A stretch of 20,149 bases of DNA. Origin: a virus. Shown one piece after another: positions 4,959 through 7,216 of this stretch. The DNA is taken from positions 1 to 20,149 of the IMG/VR virus record IMGVR_UViG_3300010883_000695; one strand, written 5' to 3'. A model generated the notes under the pieces. It saw only the letters and a list, made by a program, of their open reading frames with translations, had not been told where the DNA came from and searched no databases. The position numbers and the translations under genes are program-made. Position 1 is the first letter of the stretch. Each line of letters begins with the position of its first letter.

Positions 4959-5251
4959 TGCAATCGAAGATACTTCCAACAGGAAAAGAGAAAAAAGGGT
5001 TATTTATGCGGGTTTTAGGATCTGCTGATTTTGAGGACGGGCTTATACTGATAGGCTGTATTTTAGATATGGGCGGTGTTACAAAGAATCTTTCTTGCTT
5101 TAACGCGGGAATGCCTGATAAAACAGCCTATGATCTTGGAAAACACGATCTCGCTATGGAAATTTTACGTTTAGCCTATGACGAGAAGCAACTGGCAACA
5201 ATATTAAAACAAGGAGTAAATCATGAGTATCCTCAATTCAGCAAAACCTAA
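4958..5251 (+). CDS. Small protein between portal and scaffold (Bbp19-like?)
   Basis: A 97-98 residue protein. The frame opens with TTG at 4955 directly followed by ATG at 4958. I prefer the ATG because it gives the common 1-nt TGATG overlap with the portal stop. The segment MRVLGSADFEDGLILIGCILD followed later by a TAYDLGKHDLAMEILR pattern resembles small podovirus proteins of the Bbp19 type, which sit at this position and have no firmly known role. The end overlaps the scaffold gene by 29 nt and contains that gene's Shine-Dalgarno, so both genes are likely translated from one message. No membrane segment is seen. Confidence 0.6.
   Translation: MQSKILPTGKEKKGLFMRVLGSADFEDGLILIGCILDMGGVTKNLSCFNAGMPDKTAYDLGKHDLAMEILRLAYDEKQLATILKQGVNHEYPQFSKT
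5211..5216 (+). promoter_or_regulatory. Strong ribosome binding site for scaffold gene
   Basis: AAGGAG lies 6 nt before the ATG at 5223 and inside the end of the upstream gene. It fixes the scaffold start and is one of the few strong Shine-Dalgarno sequences in the window. Confidence 0.8.
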
Positions 5252-6113
5252 ACTACTTTTAGCGGAGGAGGAAGGCGATTCAATTATTAATTCCAGCGGA
5301 GTTGCTGGAGCTGTAGACTGGAAAAATAATATAGACGAAGAGTTTCGCAATGATCCATCGATTGCTGGCGTTTCCTCTTTGAACGATCTCGCAAAGATGA
5401 CCGTTAATGCCCAGAAATTAATTGGGGAAAACCGAACGGTGGTTCCAAAAAATGATTCGTCCCCAGAGAAATGGGATGATTTTTATTCTGCAGCAGGAAG
5501 ACCCGCTTCTCCTTCCGATTACCAGATGCCTCAAGTTCCCGAGGGAGTGTCTTTGAAGGAACAAGATTTAAATAAAACGAGGGATGCCATGTGGAAGCAT
5601 GGGCTTTCTCAAAAACAGTTTCAGGATCAAATGGGTTATTACCTTGGAAGTGTAGCGGAAGAATCATCTGCTGCCGGAGAAGCAAGTGTTAATAATATGA
5701 ACGAAGCGGTAGCTTCTCTGAAGGAAGAGTGGAAGGGGGAGTATGAGACCAATGTGGATCTTGCAAATGCTATGGTCAAGCGTTATGGGGGTGATGAGCT
5801 TTCGGAACACCTTGAGACTACGGGACTTGGAAACAATCCCGCGCTTATCAAATTTCTTGCTAATGTGGGCAAACATTTTTCTGAAGACACTAGCGACGGA
5901 CGAAAAATGAGTGACTTTTTTGTTATGAATGAGACAGCGGCGCAATCGGAAATTCAAAGACTGGAAGCAGATCCGGGTTTTATGAAACTATATGAGACAG
6001 GGGATCGTGGAGCGACTGAAAGAATGTTAAATTTAAGAAAAGTAGCAGATTCATCTGCAATTCAAACCGATTCAGTGCCATTAGTTTCTTCAAGCTCACA
6101 ACCGCTTTTATAA
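5223..6113 (+). CDS. Capsid scaffold (assembly) protein
   Basis: A 296-residue acidic, mostly helical protein immediately before the major capsid gene, the standard place for the internal scaffold that guides capsid assembly and is then lost. The segment around residues 35-100 follows a pattern I recognise in podovirus scaffolds: WKNNIDEEFRNDPSI, then SLNDLAKMTVNAQKLIG, then a Pro-rich linker with EKWDDFYSAAGRP and DYQMP. The centre (about 140-190) is Glu/Ala-rich, and the C-terminal part has RLEADPGFMKLYE, a motif often near the capsid-binding end. No protease domain is seen. It has a strong AAGGAG and is probably made in high amounts. Order and composition support the call, with no catalytic motif to prove it. 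Confidence 0.78.
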   Translation: MSILNSAKPKLLLAEEEGDSIINSSGVAGAVDWKNNIDEEFRNDPSIAGVSSLNDLAKMTVNAQKLIGENRTVVPKNDSSPEKWDDFYSAAGRPASPSDYQMPQVPEGVSLKEQDLNKTRDAMWKHGLSQKQFQDQMGYYLGSVAEESSAAGEASVNNMNEAVASLKEEWKGEYETNVDLANAMVKRYGGDELSEHLETTGLGNNPALIKFLANVGKHFSEDTSDGRKMSDFFVMNETAAQSEIQRLEADPGFMKLYETGDRGATERMLNLRKVADSSAIQTDSVPLVSSSSQPLL

Positions 6114-6137
6114 AAGTATTTCCCGGGGAATTTTCCC

Positions 6138-6154
6138 TGTCAAAAGTCTTGACA
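6138..6154. promoter_or_regulatory. Dyad TGTCAA-N5-TTGACA overlapping a -35 element
   Basis: TGTCAA (6138-6143) and TTGACA (6149-6154) are perfect reverse complements with a 5-base spacer. The right arm is also the consensus -35 of the capsid promoter candidate, so a dimeric regulator bound here would compete with RNA polymerase. Confidence 0.45.
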
Positions 6155-6178
6155 AGTCCAAAGAATTACTTTTTTCAT
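6149..6178 (+). promoter_or_regulatory. Candidate promoter for the capsid gene
   Basis: A perfect TTGACA at 6149-6154 is followed 18 bp later by TTTCAT (6173-6178), a 4/6 match to TATAAT. TATATT at 6178-6183 is a better -10 but at 23 bp. Transcription would start near 6185, at the beginning of the structured leader. The -10 is weak, so confidence is limited. Confidence 0.35.
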
Positions 6179-6184
6179 ATATTT

Positions 6185-6325
6185 ACCGGGTAGCTCTTAT
6201 AAGTCCGGTTGATTTCGGGTAAACCCGACGGGAAAGCTGACGTATCAGCTAGGGTTAGTCCGTCGTAAGATGGGTAGCTCATCCGAAGTCAACCTAGAAT
6301 CTTTTTTGCATAAGGACTTATAAAG
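6185..6325 (+). ncRNA. Structured 5' leader of the major capsid gene
   Basis: The last ~140 nt before the capsid ATG contain several mutually consistent pairings. An outer helix joins 6197-6206 (TTATAAGTCC) to 6314-6323 (GGACTTATAA), 10 perfect pairs covering the GGA of the capsid Shine-Dalgarno. Directly inside, 6207-6220 pairs with 6281-6294 (12 pairs including one G-U, plus two weaker). Further inside are a perfect 6-bp hairpin (6235-6240 with 6245-6250) and two crossing 5-bp pairings (6222-6226 with 6252-6256, 6227-6231 with 6260-6264) that would make a pseudoknot. An alternative hairpin at 6185-6189 with 6205-6209 would compete with both outer helices and free the ribosome site. I do not recognise a known riboswitch or ribozyme. 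Confidence 0.55.
6311..6316 (+). promoter_or_regulatory. Ribosome binding site of the capsid gene, inside a helix
   Basis: TAAGGA lies 9 nt before the ATG at 6326. Its GGA (6314-6316) is the start of the 3' arm of the 10-bp helix with 6197-6206, so it would be hidden when that helix forms. Confidence 0.6.
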
Positions 6326-7216
6326 ATGTCAACACAAATTGATACCGCGCTAGTTCAACAATATAGCGCAAATCTTGAAAGGGCTTTCCAGCAAAAAGGT
6401 TCACGTCTTAGAGATTGGGTTCGTGTCGAACGGCAACAGGGAGAACACGCATACTATGACAGAACGGGGAAGGTTTCAGTAAATGAGATTGTTACCCGAC
6501 ACGCTGACACAGTATTAACGGATACTCCTCACACTCGCAGACGGGTAAGCTTGCGGCATTGGTCGCATGCGGATATGATCGATGATCCTGATAAAGTTCA
6601 GACCATCGCTAATTTCCAATCACCCTATCTGACAGAGGCCAGAGACGGCATGGGCCGCCAATTAGATCAGCAAATTGTAGATGCAGCCGGTGGAACCTCT
6701 TATAGTGGTAAAACTGGCAGCACCTCGGTGGTATTTGATACCAACCAAGATGTTGCAGTAAATTATGTAGACAGTGGGGGCGCGGCAAATAGCGGTCTCA
6801 ATGTTGCTAAATTACGGCAAGCTAGGTATTTGCTGCAAAAGCAGGAAGCTATAGAAGGGAATGAAGTCTTTGTTGTAACAGCAAAGCAGCTTCAAGACCT
6901 TTTAAAAGAGACAGAAGTTACAAGTTCGGACTACGCTGCGGTGAAAGCCTTGGTGCATGGGGAAGTAAATACCTTTTTGGGATTTACTTTCATTTCGACT
7001 GAACTTCTTCCTCTTGTAACAGCTACCGATGTAAGGACATGCTATGCATGGACACGTCGGGCTATGATTGCAGCAATAGGTATGGAAATACAGACCTTTG
7101 TTGGTCCTAATCCTTCCAAGAATAATAATATTCAGCTTCAGGTGAAAGCGTCTTTCGACGCTTCCCGGATGTGGGAGGAAGGTATTGTGCGAGTCTATGC
7201 GGATGAATCACCATAA
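6326..7216 (+). CDS. Major capsid protein
   Basis: A 296-residue protein following the scaffold. It matches the pattern of the phage capsid family common in non-T7 podoviruses: the N-terminal helical segment QYSANLERAFQQKGSRLRDWV, EHAYYDRTGK, then RRRVSLRHWSHADMIDD with DPDKVQTIANFQSPYL (a conserved Asp-Asp-x-Asp-Lys region at about residues 85-105), GRQLDQQIVDAA near 112, a variable Gly/Thr-rich middle, KLRQARYLLQKQ near 166, LLPLV and AWTRRAMIAAIGMEIQ near 230-255, and a C-terminus with RMWEEGIVRVYADES. These fit an HK97-like shell protein built without a protease or delta domain. The gene has its own long structured leader and probably its own promoter, fitting its need for high expression, and it ends 15 nt before the next gene. 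Confidence 0.9.
   Translation: MSTQIDTALVQQYSANLERAFQQKGSRLRDWVRVERQQGEHAYYDRTGKVSVNEIVTRHADTVLTDTPHTRRRVSLRHWSHADMIDDPDKVQTIANFQSPYLTEARDGMGRQLDQQIVDAAGGTSYSGKTGSTSVVFDTNQDVAVNYVDSGGAANSGLNVAKLRQARYLLQKQEAIEGNEVFVVTAKQLQDLLKETEVTSSDYAAVKALVHGEVNTFLGFTFISTELLPLVTATDVRTCYAWTRRAMIAAIGMEIQTFVGPNPSKNNNIQLQVKASFDASRMWEEGIVRVYADESP

Follow-up and report, generated by a model that had tools for sequence, protein, structure and literature searches.

The major capsid gene and its leader

The window, by which is meant here the whole stretch of viral DNA analysed (20,149 nucleotides), is a 20-kb virus contig in which terminase, portal, capsid assembly/protease protein, a gap of 212 nt and the major capsid gene follow one another as in podoviruses of the HTVC010P type. 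The features of this gap and of the two genes flanking it are as follows (positions are those of the window).

5223–6113 (+), capsid assembly (scaffold/protease-type) gene 5′ of the leader (phrog_458 protease, phrog_3742)
6185–6209 (+), H1, the first conserved hairpin, ACCGG [GUAG] CU(CUUAUA)AG [U] CCGGU (hairpin parser, covariance-model match, covariation of the H1 helix in relatives)
6190–6193 (+), strand A of the H1 internal loop, GUAG, facing U6204
6197–6206 (+), anti-Shine-Dalgarno strand TTATAAGTCC = UUAUAAGUCC, part of the H1 loop and of its 3′ strand
6207–6220 (+), 5′ strand of an outer helix proposed in the first-pass annotation, GGTTGATTTCGGGT, pairing with 6281–6294 (sequence only)
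6216–6227 (+), middle hairpin CGGG(UAAA)CCCG, counterpart of the covarying P2 of relatives (alignment to model R1; P2 covaries in A3 and A4)
6235–6250 (+), AGCUGA(CGUA)UCAGCU, counterpart of the P3/pseudoknot element (read against L004, L026 and L093)
6250–6253 (+), UAGG immediately 5′ of H2, common to many relatives (alignment A3, reading of leaders)
6257–6279 (+), H2, the second conserved hairpin, of opposite orientation to H1, AG [U] CCGUC(GUAA)GAUGG [GUAG] CU (parser, model match, covariation of helix 5)
6274–6277 (+), strand A of the H2 internal loop, GUAG, facing U6259
6281–6294 (+), 3′ strand of the proposed outer helix, ATCCGAAGTCAACC (from the sequence)
6311–6316 (+), Shine-Dalgarno sequence TAAGGA of the capsid gene
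6314–6323 (+), GGACTTATAA = GGACUUAUAA, partner of 6197–6206, overlapping the Shine-Dalgarno sequence
6326–7216 (+), major capsid protein gene (phrog_3437, Pfam PF19821 Phage_capsid_2)

The capsid gene starts 46 nt past the end of H2, i.e., the leader directly precedes it. The leader region folds at −55.6 kcal/mol as compared with a mean of −35.9 kcal/mol for shuffled sequences (z = −5.1), none of 200 shuffles being as good, and the pair score of H1 and H2 together was reached by none of 1000. A known RNA class is ruled out by searches of Rfam 15, in which the window gave no match that reached the gathering score and its positions 6050–6450 none up to E = 10; likewise 17 relatives gave no match, and in nine relatives searched up to E = 1 a single subthreshold match (TeloSII_ncR30) was found, outside the leader. 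No Rfam ribozyme family matches the window or the searched relatives, and the leader thus does not count as a known self-cleaving ribozyme. No description of the RNA was found in the literature searched, subscription journals lying mostly outside that search, and an RNA family with this leader before phage capsid genes is apparently undescribed.

A family of related leaders

Searches with capsid proteins yielded isolates as well as about 105 viral contigs, in most of which the capsid gene is preceded by a long gap. The relatives of the window thus retrieved are contigs identical to it in the searched gene (L001 and L236) and diverged ones. A DNA-level search with the leader in isolate phages found nothing. 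When the leaders are read side by side, the same two small hairpins, which were catalogued with a simple parser, are found in them, though the leaders are too diverged for ordinary DNA comparison. Between H1 and H2 lie optional hairpins and a covarying pseudoknot, and minimal members (Vibrio phage CKB-S2 and L040) consist of the two hairpins and a short linker only, without the pseudoknot.

The structure was assessed with a MAFFT alignment (A3) of 25 marine leaders from which the window was left out. With H1, P2, P3, the pseudoknot and H2 as the structure, 91.3% of the cells pair versus 80.7% in shuffles, 16 of the 26 pairs vary on both sides, and the signal is lost when the partners are slid. 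The pseudoknot is formed by the loop of P3 and the stretch before UAGG; its pairs, too, vary on both sides, one of them being C-G in 11 leaders, G-C in 9, A-U in 1 and U-A in 1. A covariance model (R1) built from A3, i.e., from 25 other phages without the window, detects the window leader at 6184–6288 with 31.3 bits and E = 4.6e-5 in 338 kb, only L026 ranking above it, and in the window alone with filters off it gives E = 2.8e-6 versus 0.11 for the next match, these and all other covariance-model E-values being rough because of a short calibration. In 95 model-aligned members (93 distinct), 95.1% of the paired cells are standard pairs versus 73.8% after shuffling, and in the 93 distinct members 18 of the 22 pairs vary on both sides, which none of 500 shuffles equalled; since this alignment was fitted to the model, A3 and the match of the window are the cleaner tests.

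Every helix that varies in the alignments of relatives shows compensatory changes. That the structure is merely a chance fold of an intergenic spacer, or an element acting at the level of the DNA, draws on nothing but the general abundance of inverted repeats; it is already refuted by the covariation and is hardly credible. The window leader is a genuine folded RNA and belongs to a large family found before the capsid genes of many phages, the existence of which is nearly certain. Isolates that carry the RNA are the Pelagibacter phages HTVC010P, HTVC024P and Skadi-4, Alteromonas phage ZP6 and Vibrio phage CKB-S2, and a further match (20.9 bits, E = 0.007) comes from a prophage-type contig of Dongia mobilis, a cultured bacterium. 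No strict hairpin was found in Yersinia phage YeP5, Dunaliella virus SI2 and Methylophilales phage MEP301.

The first-pass annotation had proposed an unrecognised structured leader at this place, to be checked by covariation in homologues, and in this it was right; its overall fold has to be replaced by one of H1, a pseudoknot/hairpin domain and H2. The hairpin AGCTGA/TCAGCT at 6235–6250 is present as described, and its AGC/GCU, by reading against L004, L026 and L093, matches the covarying pairing of relatives between a loop and a downstream stretch. The outer helix 6207–6220/6281–6294 can be formed by the sequence, its 5′ strand being compatible with H1 from 6209 onward, but by eye it was not found to be a general feature of relatives. 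Two crossing pairings had been suggested as a pseudoknot, AACCC (6222–6226) with GGGTT (6252–6256) and GACGG (6227–6231) with CCGTC (6260–6264). Both exist in the sequence, but as the conserved pseudoknot they are ruled out: the second is not the conserved pairing because its CCGTC is used by H2, into which CCGUC falls in the model alignment. The hairpin ACCGG/CCGGT (6185–6189/6205–6209) exists as well; rather than the alternative structure for which it had been taken, it is H1, the first conserved element. Finally, the rarity of such leaders among known capsid genes, which had been remarked on, is not borne out for the phrog_3437/PF19821 family, most examined members of which carry one.

The wobble-closed internal loop

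H1 and H2 each contain one internal loop of four bases against one (GUAG/U, GCAA/U, AUAA/C or ACAA/C), which is closed by a G·U or an A·C wobble. The strand GG-RYAR-C precedes G-Y-CC in H1 and follows it in H2. The window fits this definition, with the A-strand first in H1, the B-strand first in H2, and the R-Y-A-R/Y loop GUAG/U in both.

When strict modules were counted with the first loop base and the base opposite left free, 71 hairpins were found in 87 divergent leaders, about 1 being expected from shuffles. The closing pair was G·U in 34, A·C in 31, A·U in 4, A·A in 2 and G-C in none. A looser scan of 166 leaders gave 92 G·U, 20 A·C and 2 G·C for H1, and 84 G·U, 26 A·C and 2 G·C for H2; it should be noted that in all these counts of closing pairs the events are not independent because the sequences are related, and kinship inflates the numbers. 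G·U and A·C are isosteric wobble pairs. Their exchange for each other, which would be meaningless in double-stranded DNA, therefore points to a three-dimensional motif in the wobble-closed loop. The wobble rule also forecasts which single mutations are tolerated.

Occurrence before capsid and scaffold genes

The link of the family to capsid genes shows in scans made without protein information. A blind scan with an H2-type DNA pattern gave at least 120 viral loci, at least 113 of them 33–146 nt before a phrog_3437/PF19821 capsid gene; the remainder among the matches listed are one at a contig end and six that are unrelated and without the structure. A strict hairpin scan of 6.7 Mb placed 266 of 293 distinct matches within 250 nt before a capsid gene. 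In loci fetched by protein alone, the module was present in 73 of 113, versus 11 of 1222 control windows. Two A·C-type H1 patterns, again among the matches listed, lay before a phrog_3437/PF19821 capsid gene at 207 of 242 places.

Seven of the other 35 H1 places among the matches listed are 68–135 nt 5′ of a gene of capsid type or of the start of one, and these genes belong to other families: phrog_212/GP7 (L280), phrog_1357 (L294) and phrog_267 (L364, L308 and L299, as well as L383 and L403). Only in L280 is the full RNA found before the capsid gene, on the minus strand at 956–853 (model R2, 26 bits, rough E = 3.4e-4); in the rest, such as L294 (about 970), L364 (about 820) and L383 (about 2418), only H1 is clear. 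The phrog_212 relatives Epsilon15, BPP-1, BcepC6B and Microcystis phage Mel-JY33 have no match and nearly no gap before the capsid gene, and L280 is therefore an exception within its capsid family; the phrog_1357 relatives checked gave no match either.

A second peak of hairpins lies 890–1150 nt before the capsid gene, with 18 matches from roughly eleven lineages, all of them single and of the H2 type, whereas about 1 was expected from the neighbouring bins. Most of these hairpins coincide with the start of the scaffold/assembly gene. For example, in L075 and L138 the hairpin is found directly before the ATG with an AAAGGA-like sequence in its loop, and in L013, L018, L021 (975–1020), L040, L241 and L363 within the first codons. 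One second-peak hairpin, in L416, lies away from the scaffold start and is probably due to chance. Scaffold-start hairpins are restricted to a minority of lineages, some overlap coding sequence, and the window has none. Over a large divergence the RNA thus stays linked to one gene or functional unit, the capsid and its assembly, as would be expected of an autogenous operator.

Pairing with the ribosome-binding site

In the window, positions 6197–6206 and 6314–6323 are perfectly complementary over ten bases, as the first-pass annotation had noted, and the helix covers the GGA of the Shine-Dalgarno sequence TAAGGA. Complementarity of this extent was equalled in 26 of 3000 dinucleotide shuffles (chance about 0.009). 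As the anti-Shine-Dalgarno strand belongs to the loop and 3′ strand of H1, the pairing excludes H1. In the group L104–L115 the ribosome site pairs in 11 of 11 leaders (p = 0.015 or less) via a strand of H1 or H2, and L066, L099 and L100 show such pairing likewise. The marine clade and the pelagiphages have no such complementarity, most relatives have none that is significant, and about ten members (L015, L016, L023, L031, L059, L092, L093, L094, L097 and L237) are without a recognisable Shine-Dalgarno sequence. The on/off switch that had been proposed is thus a candidate mechanism for the lineage of the window, where conserved fold and site pairing are mutually exclusive, but hiding of the Shine-Dalgarno sequence is ruled out as the general function of the family: ribosome-site pairing is lineage-specific.

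By secondary structure alone, the window leader has −57.5 kcal/mol in the closed state, −48.6 kcal/mol in the best state with an open Shine-Dalgarno sequence and −47.2 kcal/mol with H1 forced. The closed state is thus favoured by about 9 kcal/mol, and exposing the ribosome site therefore needs tertiary stabilisation, a ligand or kinetics. Kinetics could in principle suffice, since H1 is the 5′-most element: it would form first on the nascent RNA with the ribosome site open, and later refolding into the more stable closed state would shut the site without any ligand. We consider such a timer very unlikely, as it leaves the two conserved loops and the members without ribosome-site pairing unexplained.

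If a ligand is involved, it could be a small molecule or an ion, with the hairpins and pseudoknot as aptamer and the Shine-Dalgarno pairing as expression platform. Such a riboswitch would account for the aptamer-like conservation with a pseudoknot, for the GNRA-type loops and for a closed state that is preferred without extra stabilisation; a platform mutually exclusive with the conserved domain, i.e., with H1 or H2, is indeed present in the window and in L104–L115 (11 of 11). However, this platform is absent from most members and the pseudoknot from the minimal ones, hairpins are found singly at the start of the scaffold gene, and the RNA is essentially confined to capsid-gene leaders, among the matches listed for the pattern scans, rather than found at metabolic or transport genes. 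A riboswitch is on these grounds unlikely.

As a separate observation on L104–L115, sequences at the ribosome site in this group, GGTTATCC, GGTTGACC and ATTGTCCC among them, mirror an A-strand, either that of H1 or that of H2, of the same leader, and look like competitors of strand B for it.

Possible function as a translational operator

The leader family probably controls the amount of capsid protein, and the gene context points to a regulator of capsid assembly. The reading that we favour, and to which we give an even chance of being right, is that the leader is a translational operator for such a regulator, coupled in the lineage of the window to a Shine-Dalgarno switch. H1 and H2 would then bear one and the same recognition module, an R-Y-A-R loop that faces a single pyrimidine and is closed by G·U or A·C, and because H2 carries it in inverted orientation, the pair could form a pseudo-two-fold surface. 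The module would be the operator for a trans-acting protein, most likely encoded by the phage and tied to capsid assembly, candidates being the capsid protein, the scaffold protein or a dedicated regulator. The bound factor would set translation of the capsid gene and, in lineages with a hairpin over the start codon region, that of the scaffold gene too. That the ligand is a protein, which protein it would be and in which direction it would act are inferred.

A trans-acting binder is favoured over a self-contained aptamer by the lone hairpins at a second capsid-assembly gene. Indeed, a module that is double before the capsid gene, single at the scaffold gene, and accompanied by a variable or missing pseudoknot looks more like a trans-acting recognition site than like a metabolite aptamer. 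The presence of the module or the full RNA before phrog_212, phrog_1357 and phrog_267 capsid genes fits poorly to autoregulation by one particular capsid protein. As to the sign, the Shine-Dalgarno sequence can be paired by an H1 or H2 strand in the window and in one or more other lineage groups, so that forming the conserved fold would expose the ribosome site. For the window such exposure seems to be the effect of the conserved fold, contrary to simple repression, and formation of this fold would mean activation; where a hairpin covers the start of the scaffold gene, repression would be the likelier sign.

An operator is not the only way in which a leader could serve a protein required in very large amounts. 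A compact fold at the 5′ end of the mRNA could shield it from RNase E, or could be a ribosome standby site, in both cases without a ligand. Alteromonas phage ZP6 (L509, 1346–1500) has a strong sigma-70-like promoter, TTGACA-17-TATAAT, just before H1, and in L020, L026 and L075 strong promoters of this type also stop a few bases before H1, which would therefore be the 5′ end of the transcript; this suggests that in these four the capsid transcript starts at the RNA. Over all members the enrichment of promoters is small (mean score 8.2 versus 7.9 for shuffled sequences) and the −10 element of the window is poor, so that a promoter directly before H1 is weak as a rule of the family. Moreover, a stabiliser or enhancer would have no need for the same wobble-closed loop twice, for its inverted orientation or for hairpins at the scaffold gene, and we consider this explanation improbable.

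Returning to the translational operator, a wider version of it seems quite possible, if somewhat short of an even chance: the apparently undescribed module, an inverted pair of hairpins in which a wobble closes the R-Y-A-R bulge, may be a common control device for capsid and scaffold genes of tailed phages, crossing unrelated or very distant capsid families and read by a shared phage or host factor.

Comparison with known systems

To our knowledge, structured cis-regulatory RNAs of structural genes of tailed phages are hardly known. In leviviruses (MS2) the coat-protein operator is a short hairpin with unpaired bases in the region of a start codon, which is bound by the capsid protein and thereby represses another gene. 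The single hairpins at the scaffold start resemble it in form and place, although MS2 is an RNA phage with an unrelated capsid fold, a single-base bulge and only one hairpin. Autoregulation of the P22 scaffolding protein is an example from tailed phages in which genes of capsid assembly are under post-transcriptional control by one of the assembly proteins; the RNA element and the gene family differ.

In the autogenous leader of T4 gene 32 a pseudoknot lies 67 nt 5′ of the start (PMC3014915). Like the capsid leader, it is a structured, pseudoknot-bearing leader in the mRNA of a phage gene that has to supply much of its product, and gene 32, the translation of which is controlled by its own protein, is a model for the possible role of the capsid leader. 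They differ in that the constant part of the capsid leader is the two wobble-loop hairpins, the pseudoknot being optional, in that the gene is a capsid gene, and in that control is by the gene's own protein in T4, whereas for the capsid leader a protein is proposed. Glutamine (glnA-type) riboswitches are found in marine phages such as Melnitz and Mosig, in Melnitz linked to tmRNA (PMC9004378). They, too, are structured RNAs and belong to phages that infect SAR11 and OM43, but they are of a known Rfam type, whereas the capsid leaders match no Rfam family.

The RNA recurs before capsid genes in HTVC010P-type SAR11 phages, in culturable phages of Alteromonas and Vibrio, and in the prophage-type contig of D. 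mobilis. The leader family is a testable entry to the long-standing question of how phages set the ratio and timing of capsid and scaffold protein.

Sequences around the hairpins

In the marine clade, e.g., in L035 (1866–1967), a small upstream open reading frame crosses the RNA and stops about 14 nt before the capsid gene; the RNA may therefore overlap coding sequence. In L004, L093 and L097 long palindromes, e.g., GGGTCTACG-TGTGATAA-CGTAGACCC, are found 5′ of H1, between the scaffold gene and H1. They overlap promoter-like sequence and are possibly an operator or a terminator.
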